A DNA stretch of 35,557 nt from a virus, in IMG/VR virus record IMGVR_UViG_3300009161_000125, positions 1-35,557 of that record, one strand, 5' to 3'. The notes under the pieces are model-generated. The model was not told where the DNA came from and did not search any database. It saw only the letters and a program-made list of their open reading frames with translations. Position numbers and translations under genes: made by a program. How positions within the stretch are numbered: the stretch's first letter is position 1; each line of letters starts with the position of its first letter. Shown here piece by piece: positions 7,528 to 21,872 of the stretch.

Positions 7528-7938
7528 ATGTCCACCGCAGTAAAAACTCCAATCGGGTTAACCTTTCCCATATCGCACGGGCCTATGGGGTATTTTAACC
7601 AAAGTTTTGATGTGGTCGATCAAGTAAAAGCAAATCTTTATCTTTTATTAAACACTAAAAAGGGAGAAAGAAGATTTAATTTGGACTTTGGTTCTTCATT
7701 GTGGGATGTTTTGTTTAATTTCAATAACGAAGAATTACAATCTATTTTAGAAAGTGCTATAAAAAAGGATGTAAAACAATGGTTGCCATTTGTCAATATA
7801 AAAAGTGTGACGGTAGGTAACTCAGACGAAGAGAAAGATGGGTATTATGTAAAAATATCCGTTGTATTTACCGCAGACAATGTTGGTATAACATCCCCAC
7901 AAAATATTACATTGGTTGCCGCACAAGGAAATATATGA
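7528..7938 (+). CDS. 25: Baseplate wedge protein, gp25-like
   Basis: 136 residues, almost exactly the size of T4 gp25 (132). The family signature KGERRFNLDFGSSLWDVLF is at residues 45-63, followed by helices (ELQSILESAIKKDVKQWLP) and a beta strand pair. In contractile tails this protein sits at the wedge core and links to the sheath initiator ring. Its stop overlaps the gp6-like start as ATGA, matching the usual 25-6 pairing of myovirus baseplates. Confidence is high. Confidence 0.9.
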   Translation: MSTAVKTPIGLTFPISHGPMGYFNQSFDVVDQVKANLYLLLNTKKGERRFNLDFGSSLWDVLFNFNNEELQSILESAIKKDVKQWLPFVNIKSVTVGNSDEEKDGYYVKISVVFTADNVGITSPQNITLVAAQGNI

Positions 7939-9821
7939 TACTAGAAACGCAAAAATCATTTCAACCGGCAAAAAAAGATGTAAAATATCTAAACAAAGAC
8001 TTTTCACAGTTGAAAAAGTCCTTGGTTGATTTTGCCAAGGTATATTATCCTAACACGTATAAGGACTTCAACGAAGCGTCCGTGGGTATGATGTTTATCG
8101 AAATGGCAGCCTACGTTGGAGATGTTTTGTCTTATTACGTAGATTATCAATTCAAGGAATCGATGCTTGTAAATTCGGAAGAAAGACAAAACATTATAGA
8201 CTCGGCGCGTTCACTTGGATACAGAGTAAAAGTATCAACTCCGTCTGTGACTTCACTCGATGTTTATCAACTCGTACCATCTAAAACAGATGCAAACGGA
8301 GAAATTGTACCCGACTTAACGTATGCTCAGATAATAAAGCCTGGTATGACTGCGGTCAGCGACAACGGCGTAAGTTTCATAACAAACTTCCCTGTCGATT
8401 TCACAGTTGACACGAAAAATGATCCGTTGGAAATATCGGTCTATCAAAGAAACTCCTCCGGTCAACCTGAATTTTATGTTTTAAAAAAGACCGTTGTAGC
8501 CTCCGCCGGACAAATAATAACAAAGACTGTCACCGTGTCGGACCCGACATCATTCTACAGATTCGAATTGGCCGAAACCAACGTTGTCGGTATAATGGAT
8601 ATGTACGATTCTGACGGAAACCGTTGGTACGAAACGGAGTATTTGGCTCAAGACATGGTTCCTATAGATTCGGAAAACATATTCAAAAATGACATGGTGA
8701 TGTCAAAATACAGAGACACTACTCCATTTTTGATCAAGTTCTTAAAAACATCAAGAAGGTTTGTCACCGGCACAAATTCGGACGATACAACTTTCATAGA
8801 ATTCGGAGCCGGTACGAACGTAAAAGACGACGAAATAATAATCCCAAATGTAAACACAGTTTCAAACCAATCTTTATTTAGAACGGAAAATGTTTCGTAT
8901 GATCCAGCAAACTTTCTATCATCAAAATCATACGGGCAAGCGCCCGCCAACACGACGTTGACAATACGATACGTGGTCGGTGGCGGCGTGGCGAGTAATG
9001 TAAATGCAAACTCGATAACAAACGTAACATCCGTCGAATTTTTCGGAGATATAACCGAACTTCCAAACTTGGAGCAAAATCTAACAAGTACGGTAAGACG
9101 CTCCATAAAAGTTAATAATTCTATACCCGCCGTTGGTGGTATGGGTAGTGAATCAAACGACAGTATTAGAACAAACGCACTTGCTAACCATTCCGCTCAA
9201 AATAGAGCGGTGACCCAGCAAGACTATATAGTCAGATCGTATGCGATGCCTTCAAAGTACGGATCTATCGCGAAGGCATATGCAATAGCAGATCAAACTG
9301 TAGATACTTCGAAGACCAACTACAACCCTTTCGCGGTCAATCTTTATATACTCTGTTACAATAGTCAAAAGAAACTAATAACGTCAAATATCGCCATTCA
9401 AGAAAATTTAAAAACTTATCTGAATCAATATAGAATGTTAACGGATTCGGTTAACATAATAGATGGATATATTATAAACATCGGGGTGGATTTTGGAATA
9501 ATCGTATATAAAAATTACAATAAGAGAGACGTACTGACCAATTGTTTAACAACAGTTCAAGCATATTTTAATATAGACAATGCTCAATTCTGTCAACCAA
9601 TCAATCTAAGTAGATTAGAGTTGGAAATAAGTAGAGTTGACGGCGTACAGTCTGTAAATTATTTAAAACTAAAAAACTTAACGGTCAGGGATGGTGATTA
9701 TTCCCCATACGAATACAATATTCAAAGTGCGACTGTGGACAAGATCATATATCCCTCATTGGACCCCTCGGTTTTTGAAGTAAAATATCCAACTAAGGAT
9801 ATTGTCGGAAAAGTGCTATAA
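7935..9821 (+). CDS. 6: Baseplate wedge protein, gp6/BaseplateJ-like
   Basis: 628 residues (T4 gp6: 660). The N-terminal region has the typical helical segment with YYPNTYKDFNEASVGMMF and FIEMAAYVGDVLSYYVD (54-70), then ARSLGYRVK (91-99), all hallmarks of gp6/J proteins. A beta-rich middle with a Gly-rich section (TLTIRYVVGGGVASN) and a C-terminal J-type region with NRAVTQQDYIVRSYA and SRLELEISRVDGVQSVNYL complete it. The protein forms the inner iris of the baseplate wedge with gp25. It is translationally coupled to gp25. Assignment is secure. Confidence 0.92.
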   Translation: MILETQKSFQPAKKDVKYLNKDFSQLKKSLVDFAKVYYPNTYKDFNEASVGMMFIEMAAYVGDVLSYYVDYQFKESMLVNSEERQNIIDSARSLGYRVKVSTPSVTSLDVYQLVPSKTDANGEIVPDLTYAQIIKPGMTAVSDNGVSFITNFPVDFTVDTKNDPLEISVYQRNSSGQPEFYVLKKTVVASAGQIITKTVTVSDPTSFYRFELAETNVVGIMDMYDSDGNRWYETEYLAQDMVPIDSENIFKNDMVMSKYRDTTPFLIKFLKTSRRFVTGTNSDDTTFIEFGAGTNVKDDEIIIPNVNTVSNQSLFRTENVSYDPANFLSSKSYGQAPANTTLTIRYVVGGGVASNVNANSITNVTSVEFFGDITELPNLEQNLTSTVRRSIKVNNSIPAVGGMGSESNDSIRTNALANHSAQNRAVTQQDYIVRSYAMPSKYGSIAKAYAIADQTVDTSKTNYNPFAVNLYILCYNSQKKLITSNIAIQENLKTYLNQYRMLTDSVNIIDGYIINIGVDFGIIVYKNYNKRDVLTNCLTTVQAYFNIDNAQFCQPINLSRLELEISRVDGVQSVNYLKLKNLTVRDGDYSPYEYNIQSATVDKIIYPSLDPSVFEVKYPTKDIVGKVL

Positions 9822-9866
9822 TATCTTACCATTCGCCTTTAGGATGTATATTTTTCGGTGGGTTGT

Positions 9867-9875
9867 ATATTTATA
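9867..9875 (+). promoter_or_regulatory. Candidate late promoter, ATATTTATA
   Basis: An exact nonamer 17 bases before the preferred ATG at 9893, inside the 71-base gap after the gp6-like gene. Its position is incompatible with translation starting at the upstream in-frame TTG (9863), which supports the ATG as the start. Confidence 0.55.
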
Positions 9876-9892
9876 TAGTATTAACCACAGTC

Positions 9893-11143
9893 ATGCATTA
9901 CTTTTTATATCCAACCAAAGACGCATTTATTTCAAGTAACCCCGTTTTAATGTTCAAGAACACTGGGTTGGATGAGATACTCGAAATCGAAAAGAGAACA
10001 AGTTACTATGCGTGCGGTAGTACCGAAGGAAACTTAGGTTCCGTTTTAACTAGAGCTTTATTATATTTTGATCTAACACAGATATCTCAGTCGATAGCAT
10101 GTGGCCAAGTAACAAATCCGAGATTTTACCTCAACTTGAAGGTTTGCGAATCTATGGAAGTACCGAGTGCATATACGCTCGCGGCGTATCCTGTATCAGA
10201 ATCTTGGCAAATGGGAACTGGGTACAAATTTGATGAAAACGATTACTCCGATGGTGTAAGCTGGAAATTCAGAGATGGTCAATCGCAATATTGGTATAGC
10301 GGATCGATTTCAAGTTGCGAAGGCGGCGGGCTTTGGTGGGTATCTGGTAGCTTAATTGGGTCTGGCTCTGGTTATGTTGAACCACCTTTTGTGAGTCCAA
10401 ATCCATACGATTTATATCCAGACTGCCCGAGTACGACTACGACCGCAGCACCAACTCCGCCAGTCGCTCCTATCACCGGCGGATTGGCTTGTTCTCAATC
10501 TTTTTACTATCAATCATCGGACGTGCGCATGGATGTAACAAACATCGTAAATGCGTGGATATCCAATACAATCGTAAACAATGGATTGATAGTTATGCAC
10601 AGTGATGAAACCAGTTCCGTGGATTATGGAACATTGCGCTTTTTCTCAAAGGAAACTAATACTATATATTCACCGTACTTAGATGTTGCTTGGGAAGATT
10701 CTGAAATAGCTTGGATGACGCCTGGGTTCAATACGTCAAGCGCAGAACCAATTCAAATACGAGACGCGGTCGTGTCTATGAAGAATATGTCCAAGGAATA
10801 TAAGTATGGGTCGATACTAAGAATGGATGTTACTCCTAGAAAGCGTTACCCTGTTAAAACTTTCGCTAGAGGACCGGGGGATATCCAAAGATTTTCGGAC
10901 TATCTATATCCATATTACCTACCGTCATCCAGCTACTATGTGATAAAAGACGCGGAGTCCGAAGAAGACGTTATACCATACGACGCATACACTCAATTGA
11001 GCTTTGATTCCTATGGAAATTATTTCATGTTGGATACAAGTGGATTGCCACAAGAAAGATACTTTAAAGTTCAAATACGAGCCGAGCAAAGCGGTTCTAT
11101 AATGACATTTGACATTCCCACTCCATTCAAGATTTCGAGATGA
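9893..11143 (+). CDS. DNRLRE-like (CBM96-type) beta-sandwich tail/baseplate protein
   Basis: 416 residues from the ATG at 9893; a TTG at 9863 in frame is rejected because a promoter-like motif overlaps it. Residues 1-110 and 200-268 together read like a DNRLRE sandwich: NLGSVLTRALLYFDL (47-61), FYLNLKV, SAYTLAAYPVSESW (92-105), then MDVTNIVNAWI (213-223) and YGTLRFFSKET (245-255) ending PYLDVAW. Between them sits an insert with aromatic and Gly-rich sequence and a linker PSTTTTAAPTPP (179-190). The C-terminal 150 residues are beta-rich and unassigned. DNRLRE/CBM96 domains bind polysaccharide or stabilise surface proteins, so a glycan-contacting role at the tail is plausible. Its stop overlaps the next start as ATGA. 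Confidence 0.7.
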   Translation: MHYFLYPTKDAFISSNPVLMFKNTGLDEILEIEKRTSYYACGSTEGNLGSVLTRALLYFDLTQISQSIACGQVTNPRFYLNLKVCESMEVPSAYTLAAYPVSESWQMGTGYKFDENDYSDGVSWKFRDGQSQYWYSGSISSCEGGGLWWVSGSLIGSGSGYVEPPFVSPNPYDLYPDCPSTTTTAAPTPPVAPITGGLACSQSFYYQSSDVRMDVTNIVNAWISNTIVNNGLIVMHSDETSSVDYGTLRFFSKETNTIYSPYLDVAWEDSEIAWMTPGFNTSSAEPIQIRDAVVSMKNMSKEYKYGSILRMDVTPRKRYPVKTFARGPGDIQRFSDYLYPYYLPSSSYYVIKDAESEEDVIPYDAYTQLSFDSYGNYFMLDTSGLPQERYFKVQIRAEQSGSIMTFDIPTPFKISR

Positions 11144-11358: not shown

Positions 11359-14300
11359 ATTTAGAAAACATTAAATATACAATACCATCTACATCGTCAT
11401 TGACGATTGGGTCGTATATTGAAAAAGATAATTGGGACTATATAAAGGATAGTACCGAAGTATACGGATTTCCGTTTGGTAAGTCGGACAAAGATTATTT
11501 TGATGTAAGTGTGTATGCTTTGGATGATACTCTTATCACCGAATCCGTAGTAAAGCCAAGTGGGATTTATAAACCTTTTACCGGTTCATACTACGACGTT
11601 AGAAACAACCCGGTAACATACAGTCACGAATATTTTGTAACGGATCTAGTTATTTCTGGTAAAGATACACAGTCCGTCCTGATAAATCTGGCACAAGAAC
11701 TTGATAAGCTTTCTGTGACCGACGGTAATTATAAAGTTGGAATCCAACTCAACCGAGACTTAGTCGGAAGCTCTTTTGATTCTTCGCAACGTTTGATGAT
11801 AGATGAAATTTCTCCATCTAGAACGGAAGTATCTATAATTCCCATAAGTTTAAGAACTAGTATCAGAGAAAGTGATATAAAATTATTGCGCGAATTTGAA
11901 TCTTTTTCTACGGGAAAACTCCAAATAAAAGAAGTATTGGATCAAATAGTCAGTGCTATAGAATCGCCGGAGATATACAATATCTATTATTACGCAAAGA
12001 ATGAAAACACGAAAGCGGCAAACGATTTTCTTTTTTATTACGGATTAAAGCAAAACGTAGATGCTATAAAATTTATAACAGATTTATATTACGGAGTTAA
12101 GAAGGAGAATCAACTCGCCGTAGGAACGTATAACAGAGACATTCTCGGTATCTATGACCAGTTTTATAATTGGCTTCATCAAAATTACAATACGATTGTA
12201 TCTTTCCAAGAATTGAAAGATGTGTATTATTCTTTGTTCTCTTTCATAGTAGAAAAAGAACTGGCTGCTATCAATGCATATAAGCCGGAAACATATCAAA
12301 ACATAGTCCAGTTTTTATCTGACATATACTATTCGTTGATATTTTTCCCAGCCATATCCAAGATAGAAACTAATTACAACAATTTATTGGTTGGTTATTT
12401 TAAGAATTATTTGAATTTTGGAAATGGAAAGATGCTTCCAATAATGAACTCCAAGTTCATTGAGTCGCAAGATCCTAAATTCCACGACAAATTGATAGTA
12501 AAGCTGTCATCTCCACTGGATAACTCCATTCCCGTAGGATCCATGTTATGGATAGTCAACATGTTTGCATCGGCACCGATTGTTCAGAACACATATTATT
12601 TTACAAAGAAAGAAATACAGACCATCCCGTTGAGAGGTCCAAACTTTACAGTTAAGATAGAGAGCAAGGGAAATTCGACGGAGACACTGTCTAGCGCCGA
12701 ACTTATGGGGGAGACTGGTAGTTTATATCAGGAACTATTTTCAAAAGTCAATGCAAAATTGAACAATGAGTTCTTGGACACCGTAGATTATAGATATTTT
12801 GAAAATTTTATAAATTTTTCAACCGCAACATTGCGACTGAGTGCTTTCGATGAAAAGCTGTCGGGAATAAACTTGTTAGAAAAAGAAATTTCGGATTTAG
12901 AAATCAAGTTGTTAGTACAGCCGAGTGATATTTTTTATACAAAAGATAAAGCTACGGCGGAAGACGCCATCAATGAAATAAAAGCATCATTCGACGGTTA
13001 CGAAAATTTCTTATACAAAAACCCGAATTGGTATTCGGAACACGTAAACGCATACGAGTCTCAAAGTTCAGCTTCAATCTACGACCAATCGAACGGTGAC
13101 AGTTTAATAAACAATCTCCCAGAATTCATAGGAACGGGTACTGGAAATGAAGAGTATGTCAAGTTTGTCGGAATGATAGGACATTACTTTGATAATTTAT
13201 CTGTGTTCATAAAACAGTTCACAAATAAAAATGACAGTTCTAATTCTCCCGCGAGAGGAATATCCCCCAGTATAGTTTCTGACATGCTTACGTCACTTGG
13301 ATGGGAATCTGAGATATCCAAGGAAAATTTACCGTTGCTGTTGTCGTCTCTTTCCAAGTCGGACTTTTCACCGTCTTCTTCATTCTATAACAAAGTTGGT
13401 ACCATATCAGAAACTGATAGAAATCGCGTAATTTGGAGAAGAATTTTAAACTCGCTACCATTCATTTATAAAACAAAGGGGACCGAGGCTTCTATAAATG
13501 CTATCATATCTTGCTTCGGTGTACCTAAAAATTTGATAAAGATAAAAGAATACGGTGGTATTGACAGTGTAATAGACTCTTCAGACAAATCGTATTATAT
13601 ATTCGATCACGTTAAATACGAACCATACTTCAGTGGAAGTGGAGAATATTTTGAATCAAGTTGGACTGGCAGCATTCAGACTGTCGAATTCAATGTAAGT
13701 TTCGACGAAAACAAAATAGAAGAAGAAAACAAGATATTTTATATCGCGGGATCGCCTGGTTATTGGAACATTGGAGCGATCCGCGACAGAGGAAAACAGT
13801 GGGGACGGTTGTTCTTTACGATAGACGATGGAGTTAGCTCCAAGAGCGTTTCAACAACAAAAATACCAATTTTTGACGGAAAAACATATAGCGTGATGTT
13901 GAGACGGAATGATCCGTATTATAAATTTAATATCGCAACGGCTTCGAACGCGGTGATAGACCAATACTCCATCCAATACGATTTGGTGGTAAAACGCGCC
14001 GAAGACTCGCGCATAGTTTACTCGGCGAATGGAAGTACGTTGATAAGTGGTAGTCTGAATACAACTTTCAGAAACGGGACGACTGTTCAATTTGGTGATA
14101 ACTGGTATGGATCAACCGGATCGTTCTGGGGAAGTATCGATGAAATAAAGCTCTGGGAGATAGCATTAACAGACGAGCGGTTTAATAACCATACTATGTA
14201 CAGAGGCGCTTACGATTCATCTACTCCGCACGAAATGGTGGAAAAGAATTTATTGCATATCTCGTTTGAACGCCCGATTGACCTATATGCCAGCGGAGGT

Positions 14301-16696: not shown

Positions 16697-17830
16697 ATGA
16701 TATTTAAGGCATTCGAAACTACAGATTTGGTCGCTGGAAGAACTCAACCGGTATCAACTGGTATTTGGAGTGACGGACAAACAAATTGGTCCGTGTTCCA
16801 CACAAGCAGCAGACAAACACAACTTTCATCGTCTGCATACGAGCCACTGAATGGTTTGTATTATACAAACGTGTATGATGGTTCACCAACCGGCTCCGAC
16901 TCAGATGTTTACTTTTCAATGACCTACGGCCATTACGCCGGTTTGGGATCTTCAACTTTCGACTCCAACGCGTCGATTGGAAGTTTACTTTACCCGACAA
17001 AAGCTGTTTACAACCAATATCGCAATTTGTTATTGTCACCGGGCGATGTTAAATTTTCTTTCTTGACAGGATCGGTTTCTACAGCCGCCGAAGATTCGGA
17101 CGACATATACGTGATCAATTTCAGAAGTACAAAATTTAAAGACAGACTTGATCCGGGCCAATTTGAAATGTCTCTTTCCGGTTCTTCAACAACAATCTCT
17201 ATCATAGACGATTCCAGAGATAACCCAACTACAACCACCGAAACGGGCGGCAAACGTTACAATCTGATACGTGGTACCGTTGCAAGCGGTTCGCTAGAGA
17301 CCAGAAAATATGAAGGTATTGGATCCATGTATCCAGACTTGGGAATAGTAGTATTGAATCCGAGAGCTATCCAATCTTTGATTGGAAAGGTTTCTGATAA
17401 AAACGTGGGTCCAAGATCGCCCGGCGACTTGGATTATTTAAACGCGTGGAATCCGGAGTTTGCACAATTGACTAAATTATTATTTCAGTCTCTACAAACT
17501 GCATCCAGTGTGAATGGTTCGAATAAACCGATGAAAGCCAGAGTCACGGAATATGTCCCAGCTCGCCACTTTTTTGTGAGAGTAAAGAATCAAGACTTCA
17601 ATTATTCCAACAATCCAACATTCGTTATCACCGACAGTGACAACCCAGCAAGTTCGCAAGATATTGGAAAATTAAGATTTGCTGATTTCTCGACCGATCC
17701 AAAAGTGTACGTCACAACTGTTGGCTTGTACAACGAGAGTAATGACCTCGTTGCCGTAGCAAAATTGAGCCAACCAGTGTTAAAAGACTTCACCAATGAA
17801 TGCCTAATACGCATACGTTTGGACTTTTAA
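16697..17830 (+). CDS. Baseplate/tail protein with shared C-terminal module
   Basis: 377 residues, beta-rich. Its last 90 residues share a module with the end of the next protein: here HFFVRVKNQDFNYSNNPTF (Asp300 starts DFNYS) followed by VTTVGLYNESNDLVAVAKLS (from 339) and a closing LIRIRLDF. The neighbour has EFNYSTNP and MTTIGLYDEDGELAAIGKL. The module probably mediates attachment of both proteins to the same baseplate site. The rest contains many Ser/Thr strands and no catalytic motif. It resembles wedge-type proteins by position after gp6, but I do not assign a T4 equivalent. It is followed by a 69-base gap with a candidate promoter. Confidence 0.75.
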   Translation: MIFKAFETTDLVAGRTQPVSTGIWSDGQTNWSVFHTSSRQTQLSSSAYEPLNGLYYTNVYDGSPTGSDSDVYFSMTYGHYAGLGSSTFDSNASIGSLLYPTKAVYNQYRNLLLSPGDVKFSFLTGSVSTAAEDSDDIYVINFRSTKFKDRLDPGQFEMSLSGSSTTISIIDDSRDNPTTTTETGGKRYNLIRGTVASGSLETRKYEGIGSMYPDLGIVVLNPRAIQSLIGKVSDKNVGPRSPGDLDYLNAWNPEFAQLTKLLFQSLQTASSVNGSNKPMKARVTEYVPARHFFVRVKNQDFNYSNNPTFVITDSDNPASSQDIGKLRFADFSTDPKVYVTTVGLYNESNDLVAVAKLSQPVLKDFTNECLIRIRLDF

Positions 17831-17899: not shown

Positions 17900-20800
17900 A
17901 TGATCAAGCAGTTTTCGGCAGGAGACATAACCGTAAGACCATTCCAAACATTTAAAAATTGGAATATACAAAGCGTTGTGTCTGGAGCACTTGATCAACA
18001 TGGGTATCCCACGTATTTTCAGAATCTTGTAGAAATAAACGAGGGCATAAAATTTGAAGCGTCTTTTAGTATAGACGACGAAGTTAATCCATCTGGAAAA
18101 TACAAGCGTGTGGTGTACGGAACCACCGACGCTATGTTTTATAAAAACAAAAATAATCCGGCAGAGTTGTTTGGTCTGGAAGTATTTGGTGCAGACCCAT
18201 TCACCGGAAAGCGGGAGATACGCAACCTTCAAGGAAGATTTGTTGGTATGCGAATTGCGCAAAGTTATTGGGGCGAAAAGATTAAACCAAATACAGTACA
18301 AATAATAGACAATTCAAATTTACATCAAACATACAAAATTTTTGACGACGGCTTGACAAACTTGTATATAACTGGCTCATATTTCAACCACAACGACTTG
18401 ATACAAGCGGTAAAAACCAATCCGCCGCCGTCATATTGGGACACAAGTAGTGGACAATTTACATATACTCATGCTGATGGTAGGGTTGAAATACTGGGCG
18501 TAACTACGGCGAAGGAATATATGGCGATGGGATTGGCCGTTGTATACGCGGAAGATACTGGCTCGTGGAAGTACAATGTTTCCGGCGCAATTGATATATT
18601 TGAACCAGCCAACGAACATTTCGGAGAATCCGTTGACTTGTGGGACAGATACTTGGTGGTCGGTTCTCCAATGGACACGTTTAATTTATCAGCAAGTTAT
18701 CATGGCTATGCCGCGTTGTTTAAGTATGACGAAAGCCGTCATACACACAGACTGATGAGAAGATTTCATTCTCCTTTTTCATATGAAGGAATCGTTGATG
18801 AATACGGACAAAACCAAGACACGATAAATTTTGTTATATCCGGCGGATATCTATCTCCTGCAAATGAGGATGGTTACGGAACCTCGGTTTCTATAGACGG
18901 CGGATTCTTGGCGGTAGGATCGCCGCTTGGGTCAACGCCAACCGGAAGTCAAACTGGGTTGGTGCATGTATACGACAGAAACAAGGGCGGCATCGACAAT
19001 TGGGGAATAATAAACGTTCTTCAAGGAGAAACTTACGAAGATAAATTTGGAAATAGTGTCTCTATAGATGGAGATATATTGGCGGTTGGTGCACCAGGAA
19101 CGAGTGGTAGTATTGGGGCTGTGCATATCTATAGAAAAAAGAGATACGAAGAGAGTGGATCGTGTGAAAACGTATTAACAAGCTCATTAGTTTTACCATA
19201 CCCAGTCCCGACTTATATTTCCGGAAATTATACATGGACTAAGGAAGCATCGCTAACATCAAGCGCGGCACAGAGTGGTGATCGTTTTGGATGGTGTTTA
19301 AAAACAAACAATAACAGAGTGTTGATTGGATGCTATAGCGAGGAGCGTGATGGTTTTGCAACACTTTACACATGCTCATATTACTCAGCGTCGGTGGACG
19401 CATGCCCGACGGCGTCGTGGGGAGAATACAGAATTTATTACGCCGACGGATCAAATGGAGACCTCGGAATTTCTCCCGAATATGGTACCGAAGTAAGTCT
19501 ACCATACGACGGATTTGGTATGTCGGTGGCGATGGACGGTGACAATTTTGCAATTGGAAGCTATTTCGACAAGGGGTTTACTCCATATACAGGGGCGTCG
19601 CCCGAATTGGAAAAAATACTTGGTGCGGTCTATTTTTACAACTATCGTTATATCCCAGAATGTGATGCGTTCGAATATGCTATGATCAAAAAAACATTCG
19701 GTGACAGAACGTTTGAGTCGGTGAATAATTTTGGAAGGGCAATTGATATTGACTCGCTCAAAGCCGTTGTAAGTTATGAGTCAGATACGTTGGTAAGAAA
19801 TGTATATTATAACTATTCAACTGCGGAATTTAGCCTCGACGGATATTTATATCAGTCGTCGGGGTCCGATGATAGTGTACTCGGCAGAATTGAGTTATAT
19901 TCCTACGATACCTCACAGAAGAACTGGTGTTCCGACGTTGTATTGAGGCATAATAAGGAGAAGGATAGTCCATACGGTGTTTATGGGAAATCCGTTGCTA
20001 TAAATTCGAGTTATTTGGCGGTGGGATCACCAACATACAACTTAGCAAATGCCGCATCTAGGTCCGCGATTATAGATCCGTATGTTCAATCCGCTTCATA
20101 TTTTCCATACAATTGTAGTGGATCGGTATTCCTATATGACTATGCCGAATATAACAAGAATCCATACATAGGAAACATATTCTATAGGAATGGATATGTC
20201 ACGGCGACAAACACATCTTCCAATTTTTACGATATTCTTACGATGTCTGGTAGTCGTGGATTCGATATGAAATACCAAGGGACTCATACAATATACGAAC
20301 ATGAGTATTTGGTTTCAATAAAACCTGGTGAATTTAATTACAGCACAAATCCATCCGCGCTAATTTCAGACCCACTGCTATTTGATGTCAACCAAGACGG
20401 TGTGTTTGATTTATACGACGTTGATTTTATAATGAGGTATCTTAACAAAAAAAGATTTGAAGACAATTCTGTGTTTTTTGATAACGGTATGACGTTAGAA
20501 CAAGATACGTTGAATGATTATAGTTGGTGGGGCAACGATCTGCTACAGACAGAAGCCGAAGACGTGTTGCTGTTGGAGTCTGCGTATCAAGAATTCTTTG
20601 CAAGCGGGTCTTATACAATTTTCACAAAGAAAATTTTTGATTATATTGAAACCAACCTAGTAAAGACCGGAATATTGGATATTGATGGTGACGGTGACAT
20701 AGACCTAAAAGATGGTGCGATGCTGGTTGCCTACTATACCAACAAACTGACCCCATCGCTTTTAGAGACTTATATCGATGCTAGTTCAACAAGACGCCAT

Positions 20801-21046
20801 GTGAACGATATAATAAGTTATTTGGACCGTTATTGCGGTAAGAAGCTGTTCAATGTGGATCCAAACTTCTTTAACTATCAACTGTCGTCGTCCTATGACC
20901 GTACAGGGTCATATCTAGCCCCGTACATGACAACTATCGGATTGTATGACGAAGATGGGGAATTGGCAGCAATCGGCAAGCTCGGAAAGCCTATAAAAAA
21001 TTTAATTGATTGGCCGATTAATATTATCGTCCGTTTTGATACATAA
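17900..21046 (+). CDS. FG-GAP beta-propeller virion protein with dockerin-like insert
   Basis: 1048 residues. Residues 1-235 are a beta-rich N-terminal region (MIKQFSAGDITVRPF). Seven FG-GAP-type repeats follow, with FG/YG signatures at about residues 241, 325, 383, 463, 539, 611 and 695 (for example FGESVDLWDRYLVVGSP, FGNSVSIDGDILAVGAP, YGKSVAINSSYLAVGSP). Seven is the blade number of integrin-type propellers. The C-terminal module shared with the upstream gene (EFNYSTNP at 811-818, MTTIGLYDEDGELAAIGKL from 1010) is split by an insert carrying two dockerin-like calcium loops: DVNQDGVFDLYDVDF from 829 and DIDGDGDIDLKDGAML from 927. A receptor-binding or adhesive tail role is inferred. The spacing of the two loops, 98 residues, is far greater than in true dockerins. 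Confidence 0.8.
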   Translation: MIKQFSAGDITVRPFQTFKNWNIQSVVSGALDQHGYPTYFQNLVEINEGIKFEASFSIDDEVNPSGKYKRVVYGTTDAMFYKNKNNPAELFGLEVFGADPFTGKREIRNLQGRFVGMRIAQSYWGEKIKPNTVQIIDNSNLHQTYKIFDDGLTNLYITGSYFNHNDLIQAVKTNPPPSYWDTSSGQFTYTHADGRVEILGVTTAKEYMAMGLAVVYAEDTGSWKYNVSGAIDIFEPANEHFGESVDLWDRYLVVGSPMDTFNLSASYHGYAALFKYDESRHTHRLMRRFHSPFSYEGIVDEYGQNQDTINFVISGGYLSPANEDGYGTSVSIDGGFLAVGSPLGSTPTGSQTGLVHVYDRNKGGIDNWGIINVLQGETYEDKFGNSVSIDGDILAVGAPGTSGSIGAVHIYRKKRYEESGSCENVLTSSLVLPYPVPTYISGNYTWTKEASLTSSAAQSGDRFGWCLKTNNNRVLIGCYSEERDGFATLYTCSYYSASVDACPTASWGEYRIYYADGSNGDLGISPEYGTEVSLPYDGFGMSVAMDGDNFAIGSYFDKGFTPYTGASPELEKILGAVYFYNYRYIPECDAFEYAMIKKTFGDRTFESVNNFGRAIDIDSLKAVVSYESDTLVRNVYYNYSTAEFSLDGYLYQSSGSDDSVLGRIELYSYDTSQKNWCSDVVLRHNKEKDSPYGVYGKSVAINSSYLAVGSPTYNLANAASRSAIIDPYVQSASYFPYNCSGSVFLYDYAEYNKNPYIGNIFYRNGYVTATNTSSNFYDILTMSGSRGFDMKYQGTHTIYEHEYLVSIKPGEFNYSTNPSALISDPLLFDVNQDGVFDLYDVDFIMRYLNKKRFEDNSVFFDNGMTLEQDTLNDYSWWGNDLLQTEAEDVLLLESAYQEFFASGSYTIFTKKIFDYIETNLVKTGILDIDGDGDIDLKDGAMLVAYYTNKLTPSLLETYIDASSTRRHVNDIISYLDRYCGKKLFNVDPNFFNYQLSSSYDRTGSYLAPYMTTIGLYDEDGELAAIGKLGKPIKNLIDWPINIIVRFDT

Positions 21047-21082: not shown

Positions 21083-21364
21083 ATGCCAGCACCAAAAGAA
21101 ACAATCCAAAGAACATCATTGACCACCGATCTTGAATCGAGATATAAACAAACCGCCGATCTGGCCAACGTTGGAGGCGGAAACGCCAAAGACGTGGGTA
21201 CATCCAAAGCAGCAACAAACATGGTGGATGTCGCAAACGAATTCTCAGATCAATTTAAAATAAACAATCCGTCCGGATTTACTGCTGCTGCTGGGCAATA
21301 TTCCACAGACGTATTGAAACTCAACAACAAGCCGTATGCACCGGGTGGTCGCATTGCCATTTAA
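21083..21364 (+). CDS. Small structural protein, unknown
   Basis: 93 residues, Asn/Ala/Gly-rich (LANVGGGNAKDVGTSKAATN, then NNKPYAPGGRIAI). It has the clearest ribosome binding site in the window, AGGAG nine bases before ATG, which suggests strong translation and an abundant product. No recognised domain. It lies at the end of the tail block just before the replication genes. A virion or capsid-decoration protein is possible; I cannot say more. Confidence 0.7.
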   Translation: MPAPKETIQRTSLTTDLESRYKQTADLANVGGGNAKDVGTSKAATNMVDVANEFSDQFKINNPSGFTAAAGQYSTDVLKLNNKPYAPGGRIAI

Positions 21365-21380
21365 TATATAATAAGGTTAC

Positions 21381-21872
21381 ATGAAAATACTCGGACTGGA
21401 CTTGTCATGTTCGACATGTGGCTATGCTATAACCGAAAACAAAATTATATTGTTTGCTGGGTTTGTAGATATCTCAGACGCGGTCACGTATGATGATAAA
21501 GTTGCGTTGATTATTACCGCACTAAAAGACCAAAAATTTGATAAAATAATCATTGAAGAGAGTTTGTCTGGGTTTGCATTTGGAAGAACTTCACAACAAA
21601 TTTTGTTAAAGTTGACAAAAAACAAGGCAGTTATTGCTTATATTCTGGAGAAGTATTATAAAATGAACGTCCAGTCTATAAACGCAATGACTGCAAGAAA
21701 GGTGGCGCTGGGGGCTGCTCGCGTTAAAGGGATAAAACCCAAGGAGTATGTTAAAGCTAGAATTGAACAGATGTATGACATGACTCCGTGGTGGATATAC
21801 AATAGTAAAAAGAATTTAGACAAGCGAAACGAGGACATGTATGATGCTATCGTATTGTCTTTGTCGTCATGA
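21381..21872 (+). CDS. RuvC-like Holliday-junction resolvase
   Basis: 163 residues with an RNase H-type fold. LGLDLSCSTCGYA gives catalytic Asp7, KIIIEESLSG gives Glu59/Glu60, and RNEDMYDAIVLS gives the final acidic residues Asp152/Asp155. A central basic helical region (TARKVALGAARVKGIKPKEY) fits the RuvC pattern. The enzyme would cut branched DNA formed by phage recombination-dependent replication before packaging, a role taken by gp49 (endonuclease VII, a different fold) in T4. The ATG is preceded by a plausible AAGG site. The next gene overlaps its stop (ATGA). Confidence 0.85.
   Translation: MKILGLDLSCSTCGYAITENKIILFAGFVDISDAVTYDDKVALIITALKDQKFDKIIIEESLSGFAFGRTSQQILLKLTKNKAVIAYILEKYYKMNVQSINAMTARKVALGAARVKGIKPKEYVKARIEQMYDMTPWWIYNSKKNLDKRNEDMYDAIVLSLSS

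Follow-up and report, generated by a model that had tools for sequence, protein, structure and literature searches.

Gene order and modular layout of the locus

The window, i.e. the whole stretch of 35,557 nucleotides that was analysed, is an IMG/VR record (35.6 kb) that is probably partial and has the gene content of a T4-related myovirus. Baseplate-wedge homologues are located at 7528-9821, and a RuvC-like resolvase, a primase and an SbcC-like gene are found downstream. The gene at 17900-21046 encodes a modular protein of 1048 aa, for which, together with its upstream neighbour, we list the following features:

16697-17830, + strand: upstream neighbour carrying the same C-terminal module uninterrupted (BLASTP)
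17900-21046, + strand: 1048-aa protein with N-core, FG-GAP propeller and split C-terminal module with dockerin-like insert (open reading frame; orthologues in conserved synteny)
17900-18394, + strand: N-core, about residues 1-165, boundary approximate; a gene of its own in some relatives (e.g. L132, 5731-6360)
18602-20164, + strand: FG-GAP (integrin-alpha-like) beta-propeller at insertion site 1, about residues 235-755, boundary approximate (Pfam FG-GAP_2, E 1.1e-31; FG motif repeats)
20330-20356, + strand: first half of the C-terminal module, EFNYSTNPS
20357-20899, + strand: dockerin-like insert occupying site 2, limits approximate (difference in length between insert-bearing and insert-free orthologues; family alignment)
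20912-21043, + strand: second half of the C-terminal module, ...APYMTTIGLYDEDGEL...IIVRFDT

Several FG-GAP repeats in five stretches (PF14312, E 1.1e-31) identify the central part of the protein as an FG-GAP propeller. PHROGs and NCBIfam gave no name to the 1048-aa protein or to its neighbour at 16697-17830, homologues of which occur in Flavobacterium, Microcystis and Rhodothermus phages, and our literature search found no virion proteomics paper for the 1048-aa protein. Homologues of the window's 1553-, 208- and 377-aa proteins, of the 17900-21046 gene, of the primase and of the SbcC-like gene follow each other in the same order in relatives with and without the insert; both groups are therefore positional orthologues. 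From the position of the gene between baseplate-wedge and replication genes we infer a location of its product in the virion, as a probable baseplate or tail-fibre protein. At 21083-21364 in the window, and in the reading frame immediately 3' of the orthologue in most relatives, a small, apparently disordered and mosaic protein (mostly 56-190 aa) is encoded, of which the start (INRESLxxSLxxRY...AGGAF) and the end (NNKKY or KYAPSGR) are conserved while the middle is highly variable; it is a possible partner of the large protein.

The original prediction described a C-terminal module that is continuous in the neighbour and interrupted by about 180 residues in the 1048-aa protein. EFNYSTNP indeed begins exactly at 20330, the reading frame stops at 21046, and the module is unbroken in the neighbour (BLASTP E 1e-6 for the TTIGLY half and 0.017 for the FNYS half). 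Thus the split itself stands, but its length has to be corrected: from the EFN/FNYS motif to the TTIGLY half we count 197 residues in the 17900-21046 protein and 37 in the neighbour (which reads TTVGLY there), and the insert therefore comprises about 160 residues. Among the first set of IMG/VR relatives the distance between the module halves is either at most 93 or 164-199 residues, with no intermediates, and the carriers of the second set fall between 163 and 199 residues; this gap marks the insert as a discrete unit of about 130-160 residues. Module homologues without insert are present in Flavobacterium phage immuto, Microcystis phage Mel-JY01, Rhodothermus phage RM378 and LR756508. When bacterial genomes were scanned for the C-module, just two distant matches came up, both in Flavobacteriales MAGs, too few for assigning a host.

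In several relatives the orthologue is divided among two or three neighbouring genes, with the breaks at module borders. L132 (5731-8654), L142, L131 and L123 (5765-8648) have an N-core gene, a propeller gene (in L132 with a Pfam FG-GAP_2 match of 7.9e-18) and a third gene, which starts with what are apparently the last propeller strands and continues with the C-core and its insert; a two-gene form is found in L133 (5704-8639). The junctions are four-base overlaps or gaps of 3 to about 55 bases. These split genes support the reading of the 1048-aa protein as a modular assembly, and suggest that the propeller may be closed in trans by strands of another chain.

Putative calcium loops, predicted fold and the insert family

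Within the insert, the following features were located:

20384-20419, + strand: putative calcium loop 1, DVNQDGVFDLYD (Pfam Dockerin_1 5.1e-6, 27.0 bits against a cut-off of 22.9, with the segment scanned alone)
20411-20467, + strand: predicted helix after loop 1 (AlphaFold2)
20525-20530, + strand: WW motif of the inter-loop linker, its first Trp invariant in 55 aligned sequences
20627-20662, + strand: predicted helix before loop 2 (AlphaFold2)
20678-20713, + strand: putative calcium loop 2, DIDGDGDIDLKD (ligand positions 1, 3, 5 and 12 retained by the whole family of 72)
20705-20737, + strand: predicted helix after loop 2 (AlphaFold2)

Both loops named in the original prediction are present, as residues 829-840 and 927-938 of the protein, and each carries Asp at position 1, Asp or Asn at positions 3, 5 and 9, and Asp at position 12. 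In the window's reading frames of at least 60 aa, the loop pattern matches nowhere else. When the 1048-aa protein was shuffled 100,000 times, at least one loop match occurred in 61 of the shuffled sequences and two matches in none.

The helix that was claimed to follow each loop is confidently predicted by AlphaFold2 for the insert alone (model residues 18-36 and 116-126), with block pLDDT values of about 86-94 around both loops and low confidence for the linker; the surrounding C-module was likewise predicted with low confidence. A first model that included part of the C-module was discarded, its core pLDDT being under 50 and its structural matches meaningless. In a VIA-align comparison of the insert model one chain alone reached a Z of 2, namely the Clostridium thermocellum dockerin 4fl4_G, and this match is weak (Z 3.8, rmsd 3.3 for 65 of 67 dockerin residues); it extends over model residues 6-156 and hence across both loops. 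Foldseek with the insert model alone returned no PDB matches and only BFVD matches with E above 1. An FG-GAP_3-type identity of loop 2 (18.2 bits, below the cut-off) was set aside because the model is helical.

The insert family, collected by scanning viral contigs, comprises 72 distinct sequences including that of the window (a further sequence, L168, carries an unrelated long loop), and the other members are 31-97% identical to the window's insert. Loop 2 is kept in all 72, with Asp at position 1, Asp or Asn at positions 3 and 5, Asp at position 12 and mostly Asn or Asp at position 9. Loop 1 is intact in the sub-group of the window and present in altered form in the L123/L133 and L145 types; its ligands are lost in the L174-L211 type, and the loop is deleted in L144, L212 and L214. 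The spacing between the loops, 98 residues in the window, ranges from 69 to 100 across the family. Invariant in 55 aligned members are the linker Trp, Asp 1 and Asp 12 of loop 2 and one Phe; there are conserved Arg and Phe positions.

It is hardly credible that the motif arose by chance or that the arrangement is an assembly artefact. Although the window is a single metagenomic contig and lone loops of the same kind occur elsewhere, as in the relative L229, not one shuffled sequence held a double match, and 71 other distinct sequences from many metagenomes have the same nested arrangement, for which reason we rejected an assembly artefact. The original prediction offered two roles for the element, a calcium switch and a docking site for another subunit. 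As a switch, the insert would reposition the propeller arm upon gain or loss of calcium during adsorption, for which the two complete loops of the window's own sub-group and the conserved calcium ligands can be cited. However, loop 1 is dispensable across the family whereas loop 2 is kept throughout, and calcium in dockerins is mainly structural. We therefore consider a switch improbable, as structural calcium fits better; a docking site is possible.

Relation to dockerins

Dockerins are the plugs of bacterial cellulosomes. The profile search that was suggested as a check favours the likeness: Pfam Dockerin_1 matches 19 of 23 members of the insert family. On the window protein one loop is matched, with 27.0 bits (cut-off 22.9) on the C-terminal segment and 20.3 bits, i.e. 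below the cut-off, on the full protein. Searching all PDB sequences with a profile of the family inserts retrieved dockerins first (4fl4_A, E 1.6e-7), ahead of calmodulin-type EF-hands. With type I dockerins (PF00404; e.g. the GH9 dockerin of Clostridium thermocellum, 4fl4) the insert shares two D-x-[DN]-x-[DN]-G-x-[hydrophobic]-[DN]-x-x-D loops and a helix after each, the helices of the insert being predicted. Twelve-residue calcium loops are also common to the canonical EF-hand pairs of calmodulin and centrin, and loop 2 of the phage insert is helix-flanked on both sides in the model. However, canonical EF-hands have Glu at position 12, where the phage loops have Asp; in addition, phage loop 1 has no predicted preceding helix, and with the insert profile EF-hand proteins score below dockerins.

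In other respects the insert differs from type I dockerins, whose loops are 33-36 residues apart (2y3n, 4fl4) in a module of about 60-70 residues, compared to 98 residues between the loops of the phage insert. The dockerin of C. thermocellum has a Ser-Thr cohesin-contact pair at loop positions 10-11 (PMC4728124); the window has LY and LK instead, and these positions are variable in the family, though the pair varies between species and is thus weak as a criterion of membership. Type I dockerins are appended to a secreted enzyme or a scaffoldin, whereas the phage insert is nested inside a protein and its loop 1 is not universal in the family. A profile search for cohesin gave no match in the 35.6-kb record and none above the cut-off in 15 relatives, all of them fragments. 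Two matches below the cut-off were dismissed: the one in G010 concerns a protein with hydrophobic stretches resembling membrane segments, and the one in G003 (14.1 bits) lies at the position of the homologue of the upstream neighbour, the window's own copy of which has no cohesin match at E 1.

Taken together, the designation as dockerin-like in the original prediction holds for the sequence and the predicted arrangement, but the insert departs from true dockerins in the spacing, the cohesin-contact residues, the internal position and the lack of a cohesin match above the cut-off in the record and 15 relatives. Because of the spacing, the missing Ser-Thr pair, the internal position and the cohesin search, we call the insert dockerin-like rather than classing it as a dockerin. 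That it is nevertheless a true dockerin, with a cohesin domain as its partner in a second virion protein or on the surface of the host cell, seems to us quite improbable. Dockerins are its best PDB match, its loops are of the dockerin type with Asp at position 12, and a dockerin has been engineered with flexible inter-helix inserts of up to 16 residues for use in force spectroscopy (PMC4728124), so that the fold may accept linkers; these points are opposed by the distance between the loops, by the residues at positions 10-11 and by the outcome of the cohesin search, the last of which covered a record that is a fragment.

Propeller linkage and proposed role of the insert

All 79 carriers of the insert also have an FG-GAP propeller: 74 were counted by script, and 5 more have split or cut genes, with propeller repeats in the reading frame just upstream in L131, L128 and L203 and one or two repeats in L141 and L145. 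No FG-GAP repeats were found in the 63 orthologues without insert; at the position of the propeller these have a LamG domain or nothing. The propeller occupies site 1, between the N-core and a GNxFYxxG motif, and the dockerin-like insert lies at site 2. The content of site 1 varies: an FG-GAP propeller in the window and in the L086, L132 and L133 types, a LamG-like domain in L085, L047, L044, L088 and L053, and little or nothing in e.g. LR756508. Domain exchange of this kind is typical for host-recognition proteins, and we infer that the propeller is a swappable host-recognition domain. In L149 (3551-6250), RCC1 repeats (PF13540, 1.9e-36) make up the first part of a split orthologue and the FG-GAP part follows, i.e. 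two propeller types are found in tandem.

The orthologues immuto35A_165 (Flavobacterium phage immuto), WWT39517 (Mel-JY01) and LR756508, which are hypothetical proteins or unannotated, have the same N- and C-core and a similar gene neighbourhood; in contrast to the window protein, their site 2 is empty and their site 1 is empty or LamG-like. To the FG-GAP repeat protein of Vibrio phage nt-1 the likeness is limited to the propeller region (26.7% identity, query 199-477 alone), with the C-module and the insert unaligned. At 9765-11120 and 12881-14098 of LR756508 (L008) we noticed by eye a GIY-YIG-like reading frame between the two C-module genes and a TnpB-like transposase reading frame immediately after the second of these genes.

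In a tree of the core the carriers can form one clade (the tree holding them together is better by 14.5 log units, p-AU 0.844), and probably they do. As the carriers are compatible with a single clade, insert and propeller may go back to one historical event, and their linkage is therefore weak evidence for a functional link. The RuvC-like gene, at 21381-21872 in the window, lies near the orthologue in 72 of the 79 relatives with the insert, whereas all 63 relatives without it lack such a neighbour; being confined to carriers in this comparison, the gene serves as a marker of the clade.

We propose, with a probability of roughly 55%, that the insert is a calcium-stabilised dockerin-type domain whose role is docking or bracing in a propeller-bearing, probable baseplate or fibre protein. 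Its two loop-helix (F-hand) units would pack together, with a long, mostly disordered linker between them, into an autonomous predicted calcium-binding domain that sits in a loop within the C-terminal module of this probable baseplate or tail-fibre protein. Calcium would chiefly maintain the fold, above all at loop 2, and the domain would most likely dock or brace the FG-GAP propeller of site 1, or a subunit holding the propeller arm. The calcium might instead be purely structural, the insert serving as a spacer to stiffen the C-module loop, in contact with nothing but its own chain. This is possible if doubtful: two sub-groups have an eroded or deleted loop 1 but retain loop 2, the known cohesin-contact positions are unconserved and a cohesin partner was not found in the window and 15 relatives, but the size of the insert, the invariant linker Trp and the conserved Arg and Phe positions suggest a specific surface. 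The docking or bracing role can also be extended to a phage-own lineage of dockerin-like plugs, in which an F-hand pair of expanded form, lying within the C-terminal module, would dock in a calcium-dependent manner to a phage socket that is not related to cohesin and so couple a swappable propeller adhesin to the baseplate; we offer this tentatively and regard it as rather unlikely.

In the literature we found no account of a dockerin that functions within a phage particle. Similarity to dockerin is mentioned in passing for gene 40 of phage VvAW1 (PMC3558961) and for a template-based domain in a phage gene (PMC5967307), and a BFVD entry 'Dockerin domain-containing protein' already exists for an uncultured tailed phage. 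New are the conservation of this nested, expanded form and its association with the propeller, i.e. a dockerin-like domain conserved across a large group of uncultivated phages, at a fixed nested site and with a propeller always present. It provides a handle on cell attachment and on the exchange of host-recognition domains in phages whose adsorption proteins are mostly 'hypothetical'. In an insert-bearing relative, a 270-aa protein (L229, 1602-2414; G012, about 86.1-86.9 kb) also has one loop of the dockerin type, DINNDGKVNKQD; it is encoded upstream of a reading frame that by eye is a probable prohead protease.
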